A stretch of DNA of 64,000 bases, taken from the NCBI RefSeq assembly GCF_019203185.1, contig NZ_CP078093.1:1116001-1180000 (forward strand), in the 5' to 3' direction. A program made the position numbers and the translations under genes. Positions 2,324-58,483 of this stretch are shown piece by piece; the stretch's first letter is position 1, and the number at the start of each line of letters is the position of its first letter. The notes under the pieces are model-generated. The model saw only the letters and a program-made list of their open reading frames with translations, had not been told where the DNA came from and ran no database searches. Origin of the DNA: Crassaminicella indica (lineage in GTDB: Bacteria; Bacillota; Clostridia; Peptostreptococcales; Thermotaleaceae).

Positions 2324-2652
2324 TGATTTTTTAATTATTAAGGAGCTTGACCGTTTTGGAAGAAATGCTGTTGAAATATAGAAAGAATTATCAAAGTTGA
2401 AAGATACAGGAGTTAAGGTAATAATCTTAGATATGCCCTACTTAAATAGCTTCTCAAATGACGATGGATTTAATGGTACAAGATATAATGCTTACGGTGT
2501 ACTCTTATATGGCTCAGATGGAACGAGAAAAAATCTCTCAAAGGGTTGGAATGGCTGTCGCAAAATCGAAAGGGAAACAAATTGGGCGAAAAAAGTTTAC
2601 AGAGAAAGATTTGCCAAAATGCTTTGAAAAGAACTATTTTTTTATATTCTGA
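2324..2652 (+). pseudogene. Serine recombinase (Tn3-type resolvase) remnant
   Basis: Homology starts four bases after the flippase stop with KELDRFGRNAVEI, the conserved resolvase stretch around the LDR(F/L)GR motif, then an in-frame TAG. It continues with ELSKLKDTGVKVIILDMP, then shifts frame near 2455 into a segment ending SYMAQMEREKISQRVGMAVA, the E-helix region that links catalytic and DNA-binding domains. The N-terminal catalytic serine region is missing. One stop, one frameshift and 5' truncation make it non-functional. It is probably the left scar of the same Tn3-like invasion seen at 3375-3626 and at 31.5-32.3 kb. Confidence 0.8.
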
Positions 2653-3245
2653 GACAACTTCTTGTTGATTTCAGTTTCAATTTGATCATTTGCTTCTTTA
2701 CATATCTTATTTAGATCTCTAAAAAAAGTTTCTGTGACTTTTGGAAATACAATATTTCTAGGTAACAAATTATTGTCATCATAATAATCTAAAAAATAAA
2801 TAACGTCATTTTCTTTAGCTAAATTAGTTATTTTTCTTATAGTTTTTGACTGTTCACTAAATAAAGATATATTTTTTTCTTTGAGTAAATATTCTAGATT
2901 TTTTAAATATCTACCAACTTCATATATTGTAATATTTGACGTTCCAAATTTAGGATTTAAAAGATCATATTTAGAAAGTGCAATATTTGTTCTAAATATT
3001 TTGTCTTTCAAATACTCAATCTTTTTTTCTATTTTGTTGAGCTTGTTTATTTCTAACTCATTTTTTGAAAGTAATATATTATCTAAATCTTCAAGTGTAT
3101 CAATTATAATATATAAAATACCAGTAAAATTATATTTTATAAATCTGTTAGTGTCTTTTGTTTTTTGTATTAAATTATTTGTAAAAAAAATATTTAAGAA
3201 AATAGAACAAAGTAAAATACAAATTAATAACCTATTATTTTTCAT
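2634..3245 (-). CDS. Orphan membrane-anchored protein, unknown function
   Basis: About 203 residues. An N-terminal hydrophobic segment (LLICILLCSIFLNIFF) after a short positive start suggests a signal anchor; the rest is a polar, lysine-rich, mostly helical region predicted to lie outside the membrane. The start at 3245 is set by AAAGGAG five bases upstream; the frame extends further 5' but without a ribosome site. I recognise no family. It lies alone between two transposon remnants, and its promoter region carries the palindrome shared with five other orphan genes in this window. The 3' end overlaps the recombinase remnant by 19 bases. Confidence 0.7.
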   Translation of the reverse strand: MKNNRLLICILLCSIFLNIFFTNNLIQKTKDTNRFIKYNFTGILYIIIDTLEDLDNILLSKNELEINKLNKIEKKIEYLKDKIFRTNIALSKYDLLNPKFGTSNITIYEVGRYLKNLEYLLKEKNISLFSEQSKTIRKITNLAKENDVIYFLDYYDDNNLLPRNIVFPKVTETFFRDLNKICKEANDQIETEINKKLSQNIKK

Positions 3246-3317
3246 AGAGACTCCTTTCGTGTAATATAGAATAATCCAAAGTTTTATTGTTTGGCATACT
3301 ATTAATAGTATACTAAG

Positions 3318-3356
3318 CATTAGTTTAACATGTAATTATTATCTAATTATAACATA
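3318..3356 (-). promoter_or_regulatory. Shared promoter/palindrome element, copy 1
   Basis: Read on the minus strand, an extended -10 (TGTTATAAT) is followed 16 bases later by GTTAAACTAATGC, the left and central part of the palindrome TTAA(A/C)C-TAAT-G(G/C)TTA. It precedes the orphan gene starting at 3245. The same arrangement occurs at five other loci in the window. Confidence 0.65.
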
Positions 3357-15687: not shown

Positions 15688-15875
15688 GTGTAACGGAGTC
15701 ATAAGCCATAGTAAAAAAACATATAGATTAAACAGGAAAACATTTTCAAAATAAATTTTCAAAAAAGAAGGAAAAATTCAAAAAATATAGAAAAACAAAT
15801 AATAGTACAAAAGTCCTAGCTTTATAAAAATAAATAGGACAAAATAACGATATAATTGAATGATTTATGTTGTAA

Positions 15876-15962
15876 ATAGCAAACTTATCGAAAGGTAAGG
15901 ACGCAAAGCCATGGGTCTAAGGATTTTTCTATGATTGCCAGGTTGCCGAAGCATAGATTGAT
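15876..15962 (+). ncRNA. GEMM (cyclic di-GMP-I) riboswitch
   Basis: The hallmarks are in order: GCAAAC, a P2 helix CTTATC-GAAA-GGTAAG with the GNRA tetraloop, the strictly conserved GGACGCAAAGCC, GTCTAAGG, a P3 arm and TGCCAGGTTGCCGAAG, the tetraloop receptor side. It sits about 60 bases before a diguanylate cyclase gene, with a hairpin and T tract between, so ligand binding should control transcription or translation of that gene. The bases preceding CAAAC read AATAG; ligand specificity should be checked (see findings). The 361-base gap 15658-16018 otherwise holds only the terminator and a promoter region. Confidence 0.93.
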
Positions 15963-17478: not shown

Positions 17479-17639
17479 GAAGTCATTCACTTATCTTTAT
17501 ATATTTCTTTTTTTTATGTTGATGTTGTTTACCTATAAAAAGCAATTTGTATTTATAAATATAGTATGTTAAAATGAATTTGGTTGATATCAAAAGAGTC
17601 AAACCTTAATGTTTTAGAAAAAATACTATGCATCAAAAA

Positions 17640-17715
17640 ATTTTGCACTGATCCTTTGGACAGGGACTGATAGTAAGCCTCAGTCTTAGGAATGGTATTT
17701 TGAACAGACGAGGAG
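17640..17715 (+). promoter_or_regulatory. Structured leader of panD
   Basis: The 180-base leader contains GGGACTGA (about 17666) paired with TCAGTCTT around a 9-base loop, flanked by GATCCTTTGGACA and AGGAATGG, directly before the panD ribosome site. Firmicute pantothenate genes are known to carry the 'pan motif' RNA, a stem with bulged adenines; this leader is a candidate by position and shape only. Confidence 0.4.
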
Positions 17716-19082: not shown

Positions 19083-19114
19083 TGTGGTATAATTGACCTA
19101 AACTAATGGTTAAC
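19083..19114 (+). promoter_or_regulatory. Shared promoter/palindrome element, copy 2
   Basis: Extended -10 TGTGGTATAAT (19083-19093), then five bases, then TAAACTAATGGTTAAC (19099-19114), leading into the ribosome site of the orphan gene at 19127. This is the only plus-strand copy and has a shorter spacing than the others. Confidence 0.7.
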
Positions 19115-19126
19115 AGGAGATTTACC

Positions 19127-19456
19127 ATGAATGAAAAGTATAAAATTTTATTAATTAGAATTATTTTTGTTTTATTGTTTTTCGTTACAATGTTATTTGG
19201 ACACTTAAGTATGAATTTTGAATTTCATTCAATCCAAGAGCGAGCTTGTACAATATTAAGATGGTCAAGTATCGGAATGGGTGGATTTTTATTTTTTGTT
19301 AATCCTGACATTGTAATGAAATCTTTTAAACATAAAAGAAACGATAAAAAAGAAGAAAATATACATATAATATATTGTGAAATTTTTGGATTAATAATTT
19401 CAATAGTAGGGTTTGAATATGCTGCAGAAATACTTTTTTGTATGATTTTTAAATAA
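19127..19456 (+). CDS. Orphan small membrane protein, unknown
   Basis: 109 residues with three hydrophobic segments: about 8-27 (ILLIRIIFVLLFFVTMLFG), 45-60 and 85-107. A short basic loop, KSFKHKRNDKKEEN, lies between the last two. I recognise no family. The start at ATG 19127 follows CAGGAGA; the open frame extends 21 bases upstream but into the promoter element. It is a single gene between the VanY-like gene and the convergent hydrogenase operon, controlled by the palindrome element shared with five minus-strand orphan genes. Confidence 0.7.
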   Translation: MNEKYKILLIRIIFVLLFFVTMLFGHLSMNFEFHSIQERACTILRWSSIGMGGFLFFVNPDIVMKSFKHKRNDKKEENIHIIYCEIFGLIISIVGFEYAAEILFCMIFK

Positions 19457-28114: not shown

Positions 28115-28381
28115 GCTGTGCTAGATGGGGAGGTAGCGGTGCCCTGTAACCTGCAATCCGCTGTAGCAGGATCGAATGCCTATCGACGGTTTGTTGTTGT
28201 AAAGTCTGCCCTGTATAAGTGGCGATGATGATCGGGTCCTGCGCAATAGGAATCTGTGAACCCCGCCAGGTCCGGAAGGAAGCAACGGTAAGCAGACACT
28301 CCTGTGTGCCGTGGGGGTGCCTGATCTGAGTTAACTGTACAGGTTACGTTTGTAACAGCCTATCAACGATAGGTGCACAGC
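28115..28381 (+). ncRNA. ffs: Signal recognition particle RNA (large bacterial type)
   Basis: About 267 bases closed by GCTGTGC (28115) and GCACAGC (28375-28381). It has the 5' Alu-domain feature GGGGAGGTAGCGGTGCCC and the S-domain helix 8 with GTCCGGAAGGAAGCAAC, whose GGAA tetraloop binds Ffh and FtsY. Large SRP RNA with an Alu domain is typical of Bacilli and Clostridia. The position before dnaX is conserved in the group. Confidence 0.96.
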
Positions 28382-49394: not shown

Positions 49395-49640
49395 CTTGTT
49401 TTTATAAAAAAAATAAAGGGTTTTATCATCCTAAGGACGAGAAAACCCGTGGTACCACCTTAATTCGCATAAAGCCTCTAACCACGATAACGAGTGGGAA
49501 CCGTCGAAGTTTTTAGCTTCGAAACTCCAGCCTGTAATTCATCTTACTATGTACTATAGACTTTTCAGCAACCAGTCTATTCTCTGAAATTGTAACCATA
49601 GCAGACTACTAAAAGCCTTCATTGTTTTTTACTATACAAC
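49395..49640 (-). ncRNA. T-box riboswitch (tyrosine) of tyrS
   Basis: On the minus strand the leader holds the invariant T-box sequence AAGGTGGTACCACGG (complement at 49447-49461) and then a terminator GGGTTTT / AAAACCC with TTTATTTTTTTT. The specifier loop reads GAATTACAG; TAC (49534-49536) is a tyrosine codon, matching the gene. Uncharged tRNA-Tyr should stabilise the antiterminator. A likely promoter TTGTCA ... TAATAT lies at about 49,655-49,681. Confidence 0.95.
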
Positions 49641-51103: not shown

Positions 51104-51403
51104 TTATATCAAGTCATCATCTTTCACTATCATTTTTTTATAAAAAGGATTTTCACATATTTGATCGGCATAACTAGCTATTTCTTTGGAATAGACTATC
51201 TTTTTGCCTAACATTTCAACAATATCTTCTTTGCCATAAATACTAGGTATTCCTTTAGGAGTAATATTTTTCTGAACTATCCATTCTCCATAAAAGTCTT
51301 CAGTAGTTGTCTTTATATTATCTATGCCTACATTATGTATATCCTTATTATATATAGCTGTCATTAAGATAACTATTATTATAGTTATTTTAAGAGTCTT
51401 CAT
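51104..51403 (-). CDS. Exported protein, possibly truncated, of an uncharacterised clostridial family
   Basis: 99 residues. N-terminal signal peptide (LKITIIIVILMTAIY), then FYGEWIVQKNITPKGIPSIYG and MLGKKIVYSKEIASYADQICENPFYKK. The pattern Y-x-GxW-x-(V/I)xK ... IGKKxxYS ... CENPxY occurs in small exported proteins of Firmicutes that are usually longer, so the C-terminus may be lost after KKMIVKDDDLI. The palindrome promoter element copy 3 lies about 70 bases upstream. It may be the first gene of a three-gene transcript with 50742 and 50444. Confidence 0.65.
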   Translation of the reverse strand: MKTLKITIIIVILMTAIYNKDIHNVGIDNIKTTTEDFYGEWIVQKNITPKGIPSIYGKEDIVEMLGKKIVYSKEIASYADQICENPFYKKMIVKDDDLI

Positions 51404-51473
51404 TCATTGCACTTTCTTTCTATTTTTTTATTTTCAAATATCTATTTATGAATATGTATACTTTTATCATTAA

Positions 51474-51514
51474 CCATTAGTTTAACGTATATTATCCTAT
51501 TCTATTATACCACA
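51474..51514 (-). promoter_or_regulatory. Shared promoter/palindrome element, copy 3
   Basis: Minus strand: extended -10 TGTGGTATAAT, 16 bases, then CGTTAAACTAATGGTTAA. About 65 bases from here upstream, including CCATTTTTTAGC, are almost identical to copy 6 at 55.69 kb. Confidence 0.7.
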
Positions 51515-51570
51515 TTCAATTCCATTTTTTAGCATTTATAGTATTCATATTGCTGTTATTTTAACTTCTT

Positions 51571-51773
51571 CATTTTGTGTTTGCACCAAAATATAGAAGA
51601 CAAATAATATATGGAAAATCAAAACGGATATAGGTAAAATAATAAGAAAGGTATGTGAACAAAAGGGAGTAGAAATAATAGAAGCTAATGCATGTAAGGA
51701 TCATATACATATGTTAGTGGAAATCCCTCCTAAATTAAGTGTATCGCAATTTATGGGATATAAAAATGGGTAG
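51571..51773 (+). pseudogene. IS200/IS605-type TnpA (Y1 transposase) remnant
   Basis: HFVFAPKYRRQIIYGK, then a one-base frameshift near 51615, then IGKIIRKVCEQKGVEIIEA and CKDHIHMLVEIPPKLSVSQF. DHIHMLV is the HUH metal-binding motif of Y1 transposases. The N-terminus and the C-terminal catalytic tyrosine region are missing. It runs in the same frame directly into a Tn3 transposase remnant, so one element probably landed beside or in the other. Confidence 0.85.
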
Positions 51774-52199
51774 CTGTTAACAGAAGAACAGAGACTTGAA
51801 TTTACTCAAAGACCACAGAATATAAGTTAGTGGGAAATAGAAAAATAGTATACTTTTACAGATCATGACTTAGAAATTATAAACCATCATAGGAGAGACT
51901 ATAATAAAATAGGTTTTGCTCTTCAACTAGGAATGCTACGGAATCTAGGTTGTAGCTTAAATGATATAAGTGATGTACCTAATTCAGTTCTAAATTATAT
52001 ATCTGAACAATTAAGTATTAACCCAATAGAATTAAAATATTATGCTCAAAGAGAAAATACTAGACGTGAACATCTTCAGGAAATACGGGAAACCTATGGT
52101 TATAGAAATTTCGCTGATGAAGCCTATGAATATCTTTTGAAATTAATATTGCCTGCTTCTAACAAAAGAGCAGAAGCTTCAAATAGAGATGATTATTAA
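51774..52199 (+). pseudogene. Tn3-family transposase N-terminal domain (DUF4158) remnant
   Basis: LTEEQRLEFTQRPQNIS-stop-WEIEK-stop-YTFTDHDLEIINHHRRDYNK then GFALQLGMLRNLGCSL and YISEQLSINPIELKYYAQRENTRREHL: the conserved N-terminal DNA-binding domain of Tn3 transposases. Two in-frame TAG codons (51828 and 51846) and loss of everything after about 140 residues make it dead. It is a third non-overlapping piece of Tn3-type transposase in this window. Confidence 0.85.
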
Positions 52200-52254
52200 T
52201 GGTTTAGGGGGGGTTATGATTTTCATAGAAACCATTTATAATTTGCAAATAAAA

Positions 52255-52698
52255 CTAATCTTCATGAAAGTTATCTAATATTTTAGAAATTTCTACCACA
52301 TTATAATTTTTAAATTTTATATTACCCCAAAAACATAAGGATTTTAAGATTATTTCTTGTTTATAGTTATTTAATTTCAATACACTATGAAATTTATTTA
52401 CTTTAATTAATTTATAGTTTATATTATTTTCAATAAAATAATTTTCTGTAGCTCTTAACATTTCTGACATATTTATCATAAAAATGCTATATCTATCTTT
52501 AAAAAATGGCAAAACTGAACATAGCACTAAGGTATATATAAATATTTTTTTGATGTTTCCATTATAAACACTAATTAAACAACAGATTATAAAATATAAA
52601 ATTATCAAATAAAAATCTTTAAGAATGATTTTTTTTTTAGTAATCAATAATGTCATACTAAAAATAATAAATAATAGTAATACAATCAGTTCAATCAT
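52255..52698 (-). CDS. Orphan membrane protein, unknown
   Basis: 147 residues. Three N-terminal hydrophobic segments (about 2-19, 28-45 and 50-64), then a soluble tail with a Met/Glu-rich helix (SEMLRATENYFIENNINYK) and ending DNFHED. No family recognised. AAGGAG lies 12 bases before the ATG. Promoter element copy 4, the most symmetric palindrome, lies directly upstream. Lower GC than the core genes. Confidence 0.65.
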   Translation of the reverse strand: MIELIVLLLFIIFSMTLLITKKKIILKDFYLIILYFIICCLISVYNGNIKKIFIYTLVLCSVLPFFKDRYSIFMINMSEMLRATENYFIENNINYKLIKVNKFHSVLKLNNYKQEIILKSLCFWGNIKFKNYNVVEISKILDNFHED

Positions 52699-52718
52699 AA
52701 TTTAAAAGATCTCCTTAA

Positions 52719-52759
52719 CCATTAGGTTAACGTATAATATACATTCCTACTATATCACA
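52719..52759 (-). promoter_or_regulatory. Shared promoter/palindrome element, copy 4
   Basis: Minus strand: TGTGATATAGT (-10), 17 bases, then TTAACCTAATGGTTAA, a perfect palindrome (arms TTAACC/GGTTAA), running into AAGGAG. This copy defines the motif best. Confidence 0.7.
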
Positions 52760-52899
52760 ATCTTCTTATACTATAAATTTTTAATGGTTGCTTTTTCTAT
52801 TTCAATTAAATCATCTCATAAATATATTATATCTTCATTATACTAAACAAAACCCAAAACGGTACGCACGGTGGTGTGAGAGGACAGTAATTAAAATAA

Positions 52900-53316
52900 T
52901 TAATTACCTTCTACTCGATTATATTTGATTTTTATATTGTTTGACAAGTATTTTTTTTTTATAACATTAAATTCTTCGCATTTATAAACTATAATTAATG
53001 TTTTGGTATTTTCCCATTTAATATCTATAAAACTTGAATGATTTCCGATGAAAACATTTCCTACATTATGATTTGTAAATTTTTCTCCTTTTTTAAGTAT
53101 TGAAACTTGAGGACTTTTACTCGTTGTAGCTCCAGCATCTCTGATAAATCCTATAGCTATGTATTTATTATTAGGACAAGTTGCTTTCTTTATAATCTCA
53201 TTCTCGGCAATACAAAAAATATCATTTATATTATTGAATATGTACTTTAGCATCAGTAATGATATTATTATTAATATTAATAGTAGTATCTTTTTGAAAC
53301 TAAATAGTTTATACAT
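52900..53316 (-). CDS. DUF5412-like exported protein
   Basis: 138 residues. N-terminal membrane anchor (KKILLLILIIISLLMLKYIF), then a beta-rich domain with CPNNKYIAIGFIRDAGATTS-KSPQVSILKKGE and GNVFIGNHSSFIDIKWENTKTLII, the pattern of DUF5412 (SPxxKY...DAGATTxxSxQVSI). Function unknown; probably an extracytoplasmic beta-sandwich. GGAGGG is six bases before the ATG. Promoter element copy 5 lies upstream. Confidence 0.72.
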   Translation of the reverse strand: MYKLFSFKKILLLILIIISLLMLKYIFNNINDIFCIAENEIIKKATCPNNKYIAIGFIRDAGATTSKSPQVSILKKGEKFTNHNVGNVFIGNHSSFIDIKWENTKTLIIVYKCEEFNVIKKKYLSNNIKIKYNRVEGN

Positions 53317-53350
53317 TGTTTACCCTCCAGTGAAAGTTTATGATAATAAG

Positions 53351-53389
53351 CATTAGTTTAACGTAAAATATCTACTGCCTATTATAGCA
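53351..53389 (-). promoter_or_regulatory. Shared promoter/palindrome element, copy 5
   Basis: Minus strand: TGCTATAAT, 17 bases, then CGTTAAACTAATGCTTA. Upstream of the DUF5412-like gene. Confidence 0.65.
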
Positions 53390-53458
53390 TAATCCAAGGC
53401 GATTATTTCCAATTTTTTACTTGTTATTGCACTTTTTACACGAATCGTGGCCGTATCC

Positions 53459-53584
53459 CATAGCCATCAAGCAAAAAAATCTACTATGTACAAAAGAATT
53501 GATTTGGCAGATATAGCAATGAAAATGGATGCAGGCGAAATATTAGAATTAAAGGAAGTTAAATTCCTTAGCTTGATGGCTATG
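53459..53584. repeat. 14-bp perfect inverted repeat around a short ORF-like segment
   Basis: CATAGCCATCAAGC (53459-53472) and GCTTGATGGCTATG (53571-53584) flank 98 bases that could encode MYKRIDLADIAMKMDAGE-type sequence without a ribosome site. This lies in the 437-base gap 53317-53753. Possibly the relic of a small mobile unit or of an invertible segment. Confidence 0.5.
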
Positions 53585-53663
53585 TGTTATTACCCCAAGT
53601 AAGGAAAAATTAGCAACGGCATTGTATCTTATAGGACATGCCGTTCATGATGAGAAAACAACT

Positions 53664-53739
53664 GCAATATATATTGTGATAGTATATATTTGTATTTTCA
53701 TGCAATATATACTATTATAGTATATATTTGTATTTTCAT
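53664..53739 (+). repeat. Tandem 38-bp repeat with palindromic core
   Basis: Two adjacent copies (53664-53701, 53702-53739), each GCAATATATA...ATAGTATATATTTG followed by TATTTTCAT, with about four differences. The second holds the perfect palindrome ATATATACTA-TTA-TAGTATATAT. It ends right at the ribosome site of the gene at 53754 and looks like a double operator overlapping its promoter. Confidence 0.65.
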
Positions 53740-53753
53740 AGGGAGGGCTAAGT

Positions 53754-53987
53754 TTGAGTGGTTATTTCTTTATTTTTAAATTTTTATTTATTATTTTAGG
53801 ACTTCTAATAATACAGATCGCTGCGGGTTACTTTGTTTTTCCAGCTAAAATAAGATTGATGCCCTATTTTAATAAACTAGTTTCAAAAAAGTACTCCATA
53901 CCAAAAGCAGTGATTTTATTGGTATCTTTCTCAATTTTAATGCGTTTATTATTTTTATTAATAATTAAATCCAATTATGCAAATTAA
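53754..53987 (+). CDS. Orphan small membrane protein, unknown
   Basis: 77 residues, start TTG seven bases after GGGAGGG. Two hydrophobic segments (about 4-27, FFIFKFLFIILGLLIIQIAAG; and 53-72) with a conserved-looking FPAKIRLMPYFNKLVSKKY between. No family recognised. The tandem palindromic repeats directly upstream suggest tight control by a dedicated regulator that is not encoded nearby. Confidence 0.55.
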   Translation: MSGYFFIFKFLFIILGLLIIQIAAGYFVFPAKIRLMPYFNKLVSKKYSIPKAVILLVSFSILMRLLFLLIIKSNYAN

Positions 53988-54315
53988 TATTTACATTTAT
54001 TTTTTATTACCATTTTCAATGATATACGGATCTGACTCACTACCTGTTCTAGCTGTGAAAATCATAGATAATATGCTTAATGATACAAACGGTTTAATTC
54101 TTGAAGCCATTAGAGAAAGAACCTTAGCTGGGCTTTCAGCGGCAAGGGCTAGGGGAAGAGTTGGCGGCAGACCACCTGTAATGGATACAAATAAAATTGC
54201 TATGGCCAAATCCATGATGGCTGACAAAAGTATCTCTGTTAAAGATATATGCAAAGCTTTTGGTGTGTCAAAATCAACTCTATACAAATACTTAAGTGAA
54301 GACAAAAAGGCTTAG
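53977..54315 (+). pseudogene. Recombinase C-terminal remnant with helix-turn-helix
   Basis: From about residue 40 the frame reads LILEAIRERTLAGLSAARAR, GRVGGRPPVMDTNKIAMAKS and ISVKDICKAFGVSKSTLYKYLS: the C-terminal E-helix and Hin-like helix-turn-helix of serine resolvases. The first 38 residues are unrelated AT-rich sequence and no catalytic domain is present, so it is a fragment that happens to have an open frame; a stand-alone DNA-binding peptide cannot be excluded. It overlaps the 3' end of 53754-53987. Confidence 0.7.
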
Positions 54316-54344
54316 AACTATCGCATGACGGATGCAATAGTTCT
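54314..54344 (+). terminator. Hairpin after recombinase remnant
   Basis: AGAACTAT / ATAGTTCT with an inner GCAT / ATGC pair; no T tract. Confidence 0.4.
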
Positions 54345-54668
54345 AATGGAATATCTAAAATCCAATTAGAAGCTCTTATACAATTATGTCAGTACTTATG
54401 TAACAAATATAGTATCAGTACTATAAAGGGTCATAGGGAATTAAGATCTACTTCTTGTTCTGGACTAAACTTTCCTTTAGGGGAAGTTAAACGGACAGTA
54501 TGCAGTATCTCATATGGCGATTGTAATTTTAATACTTATACCGTAAAAGCAGGAGATATCCTATGGTCTATATCAAAATCATTTAATATGACAGTCAATG
54601 AACTGATGAAGTTGAATGGTTTGAAGAATAGTTTGATCCATCCAAATCAAGTGTTACGAATTATGTAG
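54339..54668 (+). pseudogene. Amidase (N-acetylmuramoyl-Ala) C-terminal part with LysM, 5'-truncated
   Basis: 110 codons without a usable start. IQLEALIQLCQYLCNKYSIS then TIKGHRELRSTSCSGLNFPL is the C-terminal end of the amidase_2/PGRP fold (the late GHxELxxTxCPG motif, here CSG), followed by a LysM domain YTVKAGDILWSISKSFNMTV and NGLKNSLIHPNQVLRI. The N-terminal zinc-binding half is absent, so the lytic enzyme is dead. Such amidases are common in prophages and spore-formers; this looks like a phage or sporulation lysin remnant. Confidence 0.75.
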
Positions 54669-54701
54669 AAAATAAAAAAACAAAAAAAGGAGAGATTTAT
54701 T

Positions 54702-54890
54702 ATGGCAAAAAGTTATATGTTAATGGATATCAGAAATGCCATATGGGATCATATGCGTGATAGACGAAATAGTTTTTATAATTTACCTGAAGATCATAAA
54801 ATAAAAATTTTATTTGAGATTCTTAGAATATATGGGAAAAGATATACAAGTCTATCATGGAAAATTGCACTACCTTATGATCATAAATGA
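54702..54890 (+). CDS. Small soluble protein, unknown
   Basis: 62 residues starting MAKSYMLMDIRNAIWDHMRD; basic and helical, with a Trp-rich core and ending SWKIALPYDHK. AAGGAGAG lies seven bases before the ATG and a terminator follows, so it is a real gene by signal. No family recognised. It lies directly after the truncated amidase. Confidence 0.6.
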   Translation: MAKSYMLMDIRNAIWDHMRDRRNSFYNLPEDHKIKILFEILRIYGKRYTSLSWKIALPYDHK

Positions 54891-54944
54891 AACTGCTCTT
54901 CTTCTTAACCTGTAACTGTGGAGAAAGGGCAGTTTTATATATTA
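54890..54944. terminator. Terminator after small gene, shared with convergent orphan
   Basis: AAACTGC / GCAGTTT, strengthened by CTCTTCTT / AGAAAGG pairs; T-rich on both sides. Confidence 0.7.
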
Positions 54945-55648
54945 TTTTTGTATAAAAGTAATAAATAAGGAATGTAATAATTTAGAAACATATATATAAG
55001 CATCGATATACTCAATATATTTTTTTTAATCTTCACGTTTCTTTTAGTATATTTATTTATAATAATAAGTCCTGTTAATATACCTATAGGAATTCTCAAA
55101 TCCCATAAATATATTGAGAAGCAATAACTTATATAAAATGCAAATATTTTAATGAAAAACCAATTTTCATTTTCTACATTTTTGGACTTTATAATTAATA
55201 CCAGTAGCAATATCGACAGCATAAAAACTAATCTATAGATTAAACATATTTTTTCAAAATGAAAATAAAATCTTTTTGCAAATCCTTCTGAACTTATTAG
55301 TGTGAGTTCAGCTGTGTGATTATTCCATTCAATCTTACAATTTTCAGTAGTAAGCATACTTCCATCATTATTTATAAATGTTTTAAATATCATATGTCTT
55401 AAAATATCATATTTGCTTTTATAAAGTACGGATACAGTATTATCACCTAAAAGAACAGCGCCTTCATCTTGAACAATTAATTGATAATAACCATCTTTTG
55501 AGCTAGATATCCCTATATTCTGTACAGATAAAAATGTCCATAGTACGTTGGTTGTAGTAATTATACATAACAAAATAATACTAACATTTATGAAACTTTT
55601 TTTTATTTTTGATATAGCTCTATTAATTATATCTATACAAAATTCCAT
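54935..55648 (-). CDS. Orphan membrane protein, unknown
   Basis: About 237 residues. An N-terminal anchor (about 18-38, SIILLCIITTTNVLWTF), an extracytoplasmic region of about 100 residues (LIVQDEGAVLLGDNTVSVLYKS ...), then four C-terminal hydrophobic segments. No family recognised. The start at 55648 follows AAAGGTG by nine bases. Promoter element copy 6 lies 45 bases upstream. Confidence 0.68.
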   Translation of the reverse strand: MEFCIDIINRAISKIKKSFINVSIILLCIITTTNVLWTFLSVQNIGISSSKDGYYQLIVQDEGAVLLGDNTVSVLYKSKYDILRHMIFKTFINNDGSMLTTENCKIEWNNHTAELTLISSEGFAKRFYFHFEKICLIYRLVFMLSILLLVLIIKSKNVENENWFFIKIFAFYISYCFSIYLWDLRIPIGILTGLIIINKYTKRNVKIKKNILSISMLIYMFLNYYIPYLLLLYKNNI

Positions 55649-55690
55649 TATGATCAACACCTTTATTATTTTGTAAAAAAATTATACTGA

Positions 55691-55731
55691 CCATTAGTTT
55701 AACGGATATTATCTTATTCTATTATACCATA
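55691..55731 (-). promoter_or_regulatory. Shared promoter/palindrome element, copy 6
   Basis: Minus strand: ATGGTATAAT, 16 bases, then CGTTAAACTAATGGTCA. Almost identical to copy 3 over about 65 bases. The 379-base gap 55649-56027 holds this, a repeat-like TTCAAAACTC and a terminator. Confidence 0.7.
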
Positions 55732-57141: not shown

Positions 57142-57283
57142 CTAAAGATTTATAAGTTTAACGCTTTATTCCTTGTTCATAGAGTCCAGTTTTGCCTAAG
57201 CTACTCCTGTTTGATATGACTCTCAAAAGGCGTAAATTCCCCACTAACGAATGGGTACATATCAGTAGTATCTTTTTAAGTGA
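57142..57283 (-). ncRNA. Predicted right end / omega-RNA region of tnpB element
   Basis: 142 bases between the tnpB stop and the exchanger gene. On the minus strand it contains the hairpin CCCATTCG-TTAG-TGGG and the pairing AGAGTC / GACTCT around AGGAGTAGCTTAGGC. TnpB guide RNA scaffolds come from this region of IS200/IS605 and IS607 elements. Prediction by position and structure only. Confidence 0.4.
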
Positions 57284-58483
57284 TTAAGCTACCGATTTAT
57301 CATATTTAGGATAATCTCTAAGGTTAAGGCTTGCGTTAAAGTCCCTATCAATTTCTAATCCACAATTATCACATATATACTTTCTATCTGATAATTTTAA
57401 ATCTGATTTTACATTACCACAACTTGAACACATTTTACTTGAAGGGTAATATCTATCAGCTATGATTAAATCAACTTCATACCAATTACATTTATATTCA
57501 AGTTGCCTTCTAAACTCTCTTAGTGATTGTTCCTGTATTGCTCTTGATACTTTTTTATTCTTTAACATGCCACTTACATTCAAATCTTCAATAACAATAT
57601 ACTTTGGTTTGGCTTTCACCAAAGATGTTGTTATATGATGAATGTAATTGTCCCTTAATCCTTTAATTTTCCTATAAAGCTTTTTTAGTTTATTTTCAGC
57701 TTTTATAATATTTTTAGTTTTGTGGTATTCGTAACGGTTTTCACCTCCTTCTATTTTAGTTTTATTCATCTCATATTTTCTTGAAATTTGTCTTTGAAGT
57801 CTTTTATATTTCTTAATTAACTTCTTCATTTTTAGTGATTTGTTAATATTCTTATACTTATTACCATTACTAATAATTGCTAAATCTTTTACACCTAAGT
57901 CGATTCCTATAGGCTCTGTTTCTTTATCTTCTATTTCAATTTCTTCTTCAATGCCAACACTAATCCACCAGTTAAGACCATCAAAAGTTACCCTTGGATT
58001 AATATATTTAATGTTTTCACCTGTCGGTATCCTATCTTTTTCACTCAACTTAATCCAATTTAATTTTTGTCTATTTTTCTTTCTACTTGTAGTTAACTTT
58101 TCTAGTTTAACATGAGTATCTGTAAATTTTATCTTCTCTATATCTTGATAAAAGCTAGGTTTAGTTCTTTTTTTAGACTTAAACTTTGGAAATTCACTAT
58201 ATCCATTGAAAAATCTTTTATAAGAGTTACAAGCATCTTTAATAGCTTGTTTTGTGATATTGTTAGAATACTCATTAAGCCATTTATGTTCTTCTGTTTT
58301 CTTTAGCTGTGTTAGTTCTTTCCTTAAAACGCTATCATTTAAGAATTTACCACCATTTTTATAATTTTCTTTTTGTCTACCTAAAGTCCAATTATATGCC
58401 CATCTGCTTACTCCTGCACATTCAAATAATTTAGTTTTTTGCTTGTTGTTAGGTTTTAACATTACTTTATATGTCCTAATCAT
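57284..58483 (-). CDS. tnpB: TnpB (RNA-guided nuclease, IS607/IS200 accessory protein)
   Basis: About 399 residues. N-terminal RTYKVMLKPNNKQKTKLFE, then WED/REC-like region, RuvC motifs GIDLGVKD (Asp near 196), VIEDLNV (Glu near 300) and the zinc ribbon CSSCGNV ... CDNCGLEIDRDFNASLN, with the third Asp in DRD. All catalytic residues look intact, so it is probably an active omega-RNA-guided DNA nuclease that cuts near a TAM and favours retention of the element. GTG at 58486 is directly before ATG 58483. tnpA is reduced to its DNA-binding head, so the unit cannot transpose by itself. Confidence 0.92.
   Translation of the reverse strand: MIRTYKVMLKPNNKQKTKLFECAGVSRWAYNWTLGRQKENYKNGGKFLNDSVLRKELTQLKKTEEHKWLNEYSNNITKQAIKDACNSYKRFFNGYSEFPKFKSKKRTKPSFYQDIEKIKFTDTHVKLEKLTTSRKKNRQKLNWIKLSEKDRIPTGENIKYINPRVTFDGLNWWISVGIEEEIEIEDKETEPIGIDLGVKDLAIISNGNKYKNINKSLKMKKLIKKYKRLQRQISRKYEMNKTKIEGGENRYEYHKTKNIIKAENKLKKLYRKIKGLRDNYIHHITTSLVKAKPKYIVIEDLNVSGMLKNKKVSRAIQEQSLREFRRQLEYKCNWYEVDLIIADRYYPSSKMCSSCGNVKSDLKLSDRKYICDNCGLEIDRDFNASLNLRDYPKYDKSVA

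Follow-up and report, generated by a model that had tools for sequence, protein, structure and literature searches.

Why do six genes for small membrane or exported proteins, unrelated to one another and spread over 64,000 nucleotides of the Crassaminicella indica genome (contig NZ_CP078093.1, positions 1,116,001 to 1,180,000 of the forward strand; this whole stretch is called the window below), each begin with the same kind of promoter followed by the same short, palindrome-like element? Since the promoter kind and the tag after the start are shared by unrelated genes, one factor may control them all, and the initial annotation of this DNA proposed a regulon of envelope proteins. The promoter and gene-class patterns behind that proposal hold up; however, the genes are membrane or exported and toxin-like genes converge on some of them, so that the envelope regulon is read here as an immunity-gene regulon, many of its genes being better explained as toxin immunity genes than as general envelope proteins. 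With a probability of about one half (0.52) we favor the view that the element is a lineage-specific operator for a host-encoded DNA-binding protein, set on promoters many of which drive immunity genes against modular toxins released by lysis.

The element and its promoters in the window

All six annotated loci are present in the window as a promoter followed by the site. Two promoter classes precede the element, class A (TTAATAAATGGAAT...TATAAT) and class B (CCAAATAATGTTAAAAT). The 16-mer is the annotated palindrome, and the site is the 19-base element defined below.

3313-3328 (-), 16-mer of locus 3318; site CATGTTAAACTAATGCTTA at 3314..3332 (-); -10 TATAAT at 3346-3351; class A promoter, with TTAATAAATGGAAT upstream
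19098-19113 (+), 16-mer of locus 19083; site TGACCTAAACTAATGGTTA at 19094..19112 (+), with short spacing, starting right after the TATAAT at 19088-19093
51470-51485 (-), 16-mer of locus 51474; site TACGTTAAACTAATGGTTA at 51471..51489 (-); -10 TATAAT at 51504-51509
52715-52730 (-), 16-mer of locus 52719, perfect TTAACCTAATGGTTAA; site TACGTTAACCTAATGGTTA, a perfect palindrome, at 52716..52734 (-); -10 TATAGT at 52749-52754
53346-53361 (-), 16-mer of locus 53351; site TACGTTAAACTAATGCTTA at 53347..53365 (-); -10 TATAAT at 53381-53386
55687-55702 (-), 16-mer of locus 55691; site TCCGTTAAACTAATGGTCA at 55688..55706 (-); -10 TATAAT at 55721-55726

The TATAAT annotated at all six is found at five of them, locus 52719 having TATAGT instead, and the spacing from the -10 to the 16-mer, given as usually 16-17, measures 17-19 at five sites and 4 at 19098. 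At one mismatch or fewer the window holds six matches to the 16-mer, three of them exact, and all six have TATAAT or TATAGT within 26 bp upstream; 40 Markov-resampled control windows average 0 exact matches, 0.075 matches with up to one mismatch and 0 that have a -10. At three mismatches the 16-mer is not enriched in the window (13 seen, 14.04 expected), so that only close matches count.

Distribution and consensus in the family

When the motif search was extended to the whole genome and its relatives, close matches were again found to sit at promoters, in the host and in its family (genomes are numbered G and loci L below). In the host genome (2,756,133 bases) the 16-mer at one mismatch or fewer gives 10 matches against 3 for a reversed control, and an exact shifted 16-mer gives 6 against 0; the latter is found in 3 of 16 family genomes. 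Among 393 genomes of the order, drawn from a larger group, five contain the exact 16-mer, and both of those outside the family lack a -10. The 19-mer at three mismatches or fewer has matches in 11 of the 16 family genomes, with control counts that are similar in several, and promoter context was therefore used to sort the matches. The family loci (453,787 bases) hold 36 sites with up to three mismatches, and 24 of these show a -10 at a distance of 8-20 bp, compared with 0 of 1 for the reversed pattern and a mean of 0.05 of 0.5 for 20 shuffled patterns; these loci were picked partly for holding sites, so that the ratio to the controls counts and not the density. A wider contig scan yielded at least 115 stretches, one of which is a G012 contig (L122); 14 of the other 114 listed satisfy a -10 rule applied loosely, but none of these 14 non-family stretches, among the matches listed, has a class A or class B promoter when inspected by eye. 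The promoter DNA of 55.7 kb has no match when compared with phages and plasmids. The element is concentrated in one clostridial family.

The set used for all further counts comprises 27 sites in nine genomes; the host contributes 10 and its relatives within the family 17. Six of 43 family matches (G000:755905; G004:C8, C14, C40 and C49; G012:C35) were left aside. Of the 12 family sites that fail the -10 rule, L173:6229 was kept by eye (-10 TAAACT, 7 nt away) and 11 were dropped; two sites with four mismatches, L175:10088 and window 19094, were added to the resulting 25, and six sites with five mismatches and a -10 were left out. One gene is represented twice, by its copies at window 55688 and L167, which count as two sites.

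The consensus over the 27 sites is TACGTTAAACTAATGGTTA(R)T, with a core AAACTAATG.TT that is nearly invariant in the sequence logo, and conservation reaches beyond the 16-mer, taking in TACG on its upstream side and RT on its downstream side. At 26 of the 27 sites the -10 is of the extended kind (TGN), and its distance to the element is 11-17 nt at 25, the exceptions being window 19094 (0) and L173 (7). The annotated imperfect palindrome is present, yet as a key feature it is not supported: only two of the 27 sites are perfect (52716 and L181), and in the half-sites, where several pairs are mostly symmetric, the second pair from the center is mismatched in 23. The predicted position, just past the presumed transcription start, fits a DNA-binding regulator; the span, annotated as about +10 to +25, is here estimated as about +5 to +30.

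Conservation at the site and exchange of its flanks

In ungapped comparison of seven host copies the first 15 bases of the site are 0.80-1.0 identical in all 21 pairs. Between 53347 and 3314 this identity is 0.87 and that of the flanks 0.23-0.60, i.e., background. The promoters at 51471 and 55688 are 0.90-0.94 identical over 50 bp upstream, remain alike into the site, and are 0.38-0.57 identical downstream of it. The gene behind 55688 encodes a protein of four predicted membrane spans, called Y here; comparison of this gene (G000) with its copy in G001 gives 0.21-0.43 identity upstream, 0.93 over the first 15 site bases and 1.0 over the next 85. Homology between the two starts at the site, extends over 786 bp at 93% nucleotide identity and stops past the stop codon, not at another site. 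Another Y homologue, in G006, has a class B promoter like that of G001, so that the different promoter of the host copy is most simply read as acquired by exchange in the host lineage. Judged from these alignments, the site is a junction where promoter and gene were swapped between copies.

Genes behind the sites

Each site in the window precedes an open reading frame (ORF) for a membrane or exported protein, as annotated, five of them by rule and the ORF of 99 amino acids (aa) at 51403 by eye only. The genes and one neighbor are listed here (TM, transmembrane segment).

2634..3245 (-), 203-aa exported/membrane protein, 1 TM, candidate immunity gene
2458-2652, resolvase-like fragment convergent with the 203-aa gene (Pfam 0.00042, below cut-off)
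19127..19456 (+), 109-aa protein, 2 TM, candidate immunity gene
51104..51403 (-), 99-aa protein, candidate orphan immunity gene; hydrophobic N-terminus by eye, not called by the TM and Shine-Dalgarno (SD) rules
52255..52698 (-), 147-aa protein, 2 TM, candidate orphan immunity gene
52900..53316 (-), 138-aa protein, 1 TM, candidate orphan immunity gene; Pfam DUF5412, 1.5e-9
54935..55648 (-), protein Y, 237 aa, 4 TM

Over the whole set an SD-preceded ORF (at least 60 aa, start within 260 nt) lies behind 21 of the 27 sites; the ORF at L177 reaches the edge of its contig. Judged by simple hydropathy (a TM segment or a hydrophobic N-terminus), 20 of these 21 products are membrane or exported, compared with 26 of 48 SD-preceded ORFs in the window. 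As to whether matches are confined to the starts of small membrane genes, most of them do lie where a membrane or exported gene begins. The distance from site to start codon is 12-108 nt in 20 of the 21 genes and 250 in one.

Single members match the Pfam families DUF5412, WG repeats, Cu_amine_oxidN1 and YcxB. The DUF5412 protein has no similarity to the L168 gene product and no match in phages, the 237-aa Y has none in plasmids, and PADLOC gave a single weak match (0.0036) for ten proteins.

A second host promoter, of class B and with a weaker site (four mismatches), was observed at L175 10088-11272, before the gene of a 223-aa lipoprotein convergent with that of a CHAP-domain protein; the lipoprotein is possibly a candidate immunity protein against a wall hydrolase.

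Convergent toxin-like genes

A clear convergent toxin-like or lysin gene faces 8 of the 27 sites (three in L166, two in L175, and one each in L172, L207 and L179), and such a neighbor is likely at three more (window 55688, L168 and L170). The relevant remnants and ORF in the window are the following.

51774..52199 (+), Tn3-family transposase N-terminus remnant (DUF4158), with two TAG stops inside the match
53977..54315 (+), resolvase C-terminal fragment (HTH_7), a transposon remnant
54330..54668 (+), Amidase_2-LysM gene remnant, C-terminal part (61% identity, E 1.2e-38), convergent with Y; in relatives this gene precedes toxin genes
54702..54890 (+), 62-aa ORF that follows the amidase remnant and occupies the toxin position; it converges with Y and has no Pfam match over cut-off

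The Amidase_2-LysM gene is the anchor of the toxin loci and has matches in 9 of the 16 family genomes, distant amidases included. Among seven loci with the close type of amidase and with sequence past the toxin position, five contain a convergent Y and a site (two in G012, two in G000, one in G006); in several of these five the amidase or toxin genes are broken or interrupted by insertion elements. A complete locus in G003 has the order sigma factor, BhlA holin, amidase-LysM, LRR_5 protein and 1704-aa RHS protein (Pfam: Holin_BhlA 1.1e-31, LRR_5, RHS). The toxins of G012 and of the host (L166, 528 aa; L187, 385 aa) are 40% identical in their N-termini over 316 aligned positions, ending near MNAxGExLIET, and the C-termini of this one pair have no significant match. 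On sequence comparison, a conserved toxin N-terminus with differing C-termini matches the polymorphic-toxin pattern. One toxin is fused to LysM, and this LysM-toxin has no match in plasmids.

The sequence TTTACA-N17-GTCTTT stands before sigma and amidase genes in L203 and L204 (genomes G003 and G002; two of eight loci scanned). A loose form of the pattern has two further matches in L203 and none in L205, L166, L187, L210, L206 or L193, and the background is 2 in 188,006 bases. The sigma ORFs of L203, L204 and L205 (three of five looked at) contain the SRQ motif, whereas those of L166 and L210 read SKQ; an SRQ motif in region 4.2 marks TcdR-group sigma factors, according to the available portion of PMC4031146.

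Two further loci were observed in this connection. In L205 (G002:C50, 1687-3585) an AgrD-like peptide, recognized by eye and with no Pfam match, and a LytTR response regulator are encoded directly upstream of the toxin sigma gene, and quorum control of the toxin arm in this locus is possible. In L252 (G005:C14, 3314-8610) a Tn3-type transposon with 66-nt inverted ends (86% complementary) carries a convergent pair, an exported 119-aa protein and a 224-aa lipoprotein, perhaps a toxin-immunity passenger.

A proposed operator on candidate immunity genes: points for and against

Taken separately, the site is most likely a lineage-specific regulatory element, namely an operator for a predicted host-encoded DNA-binding protein, and the small membrane-protein genes are most likely shields against lysis-released protein toxins. 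In the arrangement that we propose, strong extended -10 promoters would carry the site at about +5 to +30, and many of them would drive immunity genes (Y) against protein toxins (X) of a modular family that are set free by lysis. In the toxin arm, the genes for sigma factor, BhlA/UviB holin, Amidase_2-LysM and toxin would have their own TcdR/UviA-type promoters, TTTACA-N17-GTCTTT, and the immunity arm would have housekeeping-type promoters with the common site, so that one signal could set immunity in any cell, producer or not. With separate promoter types immunity would be wired apart from toxin production, which we infer would suit genes that serve non-producers too. In the convergent layout the outer ends would be the conserved 5' parts, amidase and N-terminus at one end and promoter and site at the opposite end, with the variable 3' parts between them, so that recombination could exchange toxin-immunity pairs and, at the site, attach new immunity genes to the promoter already in place; the region at 51-56 kb would be a stack of largely orphaned candidate immunity genes.

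Immunity genes are usually thought to travel in the operon of their toxin. If the operator reading is correct, shared control of many unrelated and often orphan immunity genes would let a cell run its set of shields as one regulon, and the element would provide a sequence tag for finding immunity proteins and the matching toxins. In topical literature searches, whose coverage leaves out most subscription journals, no title or opening of an abstract among the matches listed concerns such an element.

Several observations weigh against this reading, which is weakest in calling for a regulator, in assigning immunity to what are candidate genes, and at the 16 of 27 sites with no recognizable toxin. 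No regulator has come to light, nor does any gene observed immediately behind the 27 sites resemble one; the operator function is a prediction, and the factor may be a repressor or an activator. Of the 16 sites where no toxin-like neighbor was seen, some lie at contig ends or beside other genes. Sites are missing from the full toxin locus of G003, which has a 68-aa membrane gene in tandem, from that of G004, which also lacks a toxin, and from a toxin-like pair in G007. For the short X proteins neither Pfam nor NCBIfam gives a family over cut-off (eight X-type proteins in NCBIfam, at 0.01), and their similarity to one another is weak (best E 0.004), so that the toxin label rests on position and hydrophobic stretches. 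The SD rule gives no ORF in the 260 nt behind six of the 27 sites: L174 and L176 seem decayed, a transposase gene cuts off L181, the operon that L179 begins starts somewhat further on, and the ORFs at window 51471 and L170 have no clear SD. The gene at L178 is glyoxalase-like, that at L182 is the one starting 250 nt from its site, and the site of the G006 Y homologue is split by about 150 bp. Some site-bearing genes encode large lipoproteins or exported proteins (a 494-aa WG-repeat protein, a 300-aa Cu_amine_oxidN1 protein) unlike classical immunity proteins, and one in G001 is convergent with the gene of an SLH protein.

Alternative explanations of the site

The sharp switch of identity at the site (Y in G000 and G001; 51471 and 55688) speaks for a rather unlikely alternative, in which the site is mainly a recombination junction: a promoter cassette of about 65-70 bp would spread through gene conversion or site-specific recombination and pick up genes at its 3' end, with no dedicated regulator. 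Tn3-type transposase remnants beside sites at four of the seven DUF4158 places found, and integrase fragments near two amidase loci, point the same way. A junction would, however, require neither the near-fixed distance to the -10 (11-17 nt at 25 of 27) nor conservation in copies with unrelated flanks, and the homology of Y between G000 and G001 ends after the stop codon rather than at a second site. It is decidedly improbable that the site is operator and exchange point at once, in an integron-like cassette system for clostridial immunity genes whose new members would join at a short core ending the resident promoter, and whose whole set would be induced by one core-binding factor on meeting a bacteriocin. 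An origin of the site as a Tn3-type terminal repeat was rejected, because two sites around the transposase remnant in L166 differ in promoter class and the Tn3-type element of L252, with its 66-nt inverted ends, has no site in the scan. The site might also act in RNA, as a 5' leader whose sequence is recognized by a small RNA or an RNA-binding protein, a variant that the initial annotation allowed for; its place near the 5' end of the presumed transcript and its tie to the -10 rather than to the start codon are consistent with this. Four of the 27 leaders were folded, and they yielded no RNA hairpin and fold no better than shuffles (z -0.07 to -0.64), pairing is not kept across sites, and no Rfam family was found at the six window sites at gathering score, which makes action in RNA quite unlikely.

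Two known operators were also considered in place of one specific to this lineage. LexA operators read CGAAC-N4-GTTYG, and uviA-type systems are induced by DNA damage, so that a LexA (SOS) operator would tie immunity to the damage induction of bacteriocins; the N4 spacer and the flanking C...G of the site do resemble the half-site layout of LexA. This candidate was rejected as hardly tenable, since the host lexA gene has CGAACAAATGTTTG, which fits that form, in front of it and the site contains no GAAC. A LytTR box of the AgrA/PlnC type is suggested by the left half of the site, TACGTTAAA, which resembles the plantaricin repeat TACGTTAAT in the consensus quoted in the part of PMC2714321 available, and by the LytTR regulator and AgrD-like peptide directly upstream of the toxin sigma gene in G002. 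It is nonetheless very improbable: plantaricin repeats are tandem and lie upstream of the -35, whereas here a single copy follows the -10; 15 of 16 family genomes carry LytTR genes, whether or not sites are present; and of 51 LytTR matches 30 were examined as loci, none of which has a site at four mismatches or fewer. One of these 30, L242 (G005), has ordinary tandem ACAGTTAGG LytTR boxes near its LytTR gene, on the minus strand near 202-242 of the reverse complement.

Relation to known systems

The toxin arm resembles the UviA/UviB (BhlA) bacteriocin loci of clostridia and their TcdR-group sigma factors in having a small SRQ-type sigma factor, a BhlA/UviB holin and TTTACA promoters. Compared with the classical layout of those loci, an Amidase_2-LysM gene and modular toxins are added here, and the immunity-like genes are on a separate promoter type with a site of its own. 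Mobile promoters are short promoter units repeated before unrelated genes; in contrast, the repeat here ends in an element that is kept after the promoter part has diverged.

Plasmid pTVTCOM2 of Terrisporobacter encodes a sigma-like protein, a BhlA/UviB peptide and a hydrolase-like protein (Rv2525c_GlyHyd-like, PG_binding_1 and a C-terminal hydrophobic stretch), followed by a convergent gene for a YcxB-family membrane protein. This is an independent parallel in layout. In the parts of the plasmid that were read there is no site at four mismatches or fewer, so the layout is wider than the site; the YcxB protein of L173 has no BLASTP similarity to that of the plasmid, so the comparison is one of family names and layout.

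Polymorphic toxin systems with immunity islands, as far as the consulted portions of PMC3482391 and PMC9484751 describe them, likewise have a conserved N-terminus, a variable C-terminus, an adjacent variable gene, orphan immunity genes and recombination. Here too the candidate immunity gene adjoins the toxin gene, its protective role being that of a candidate only; in contrast to those systems, the immunity-like genes are convergent, share one promoter type and site, and encode mostly unrelated proteins. The plantaricin (pln) regulon of Lactobacillus plantarum, in the available part of PMC2714321, is alike in having one DNA element with a similar half sequence before several bacteriocin-linked operons, but its boxes are tandem and upstream of the -35, as opposed to a single element after the -10.

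Other features of the window

A RAGATH-18 RNA (57169-57230, -) lies directly 3' of a TnpB-like gene (57284-58462, -; OrfB_IS605, Cas12f1-like_TNB), a pairing described in the portion of PMC11061315 that was available. The window also contains the following RNA elements.

15868-15950, c-di-GMP-I riboswitch
17581-17673, pan motif before panD
28116-28380, large signal recognition particle RNA
49430-49631 (-), T-box leader

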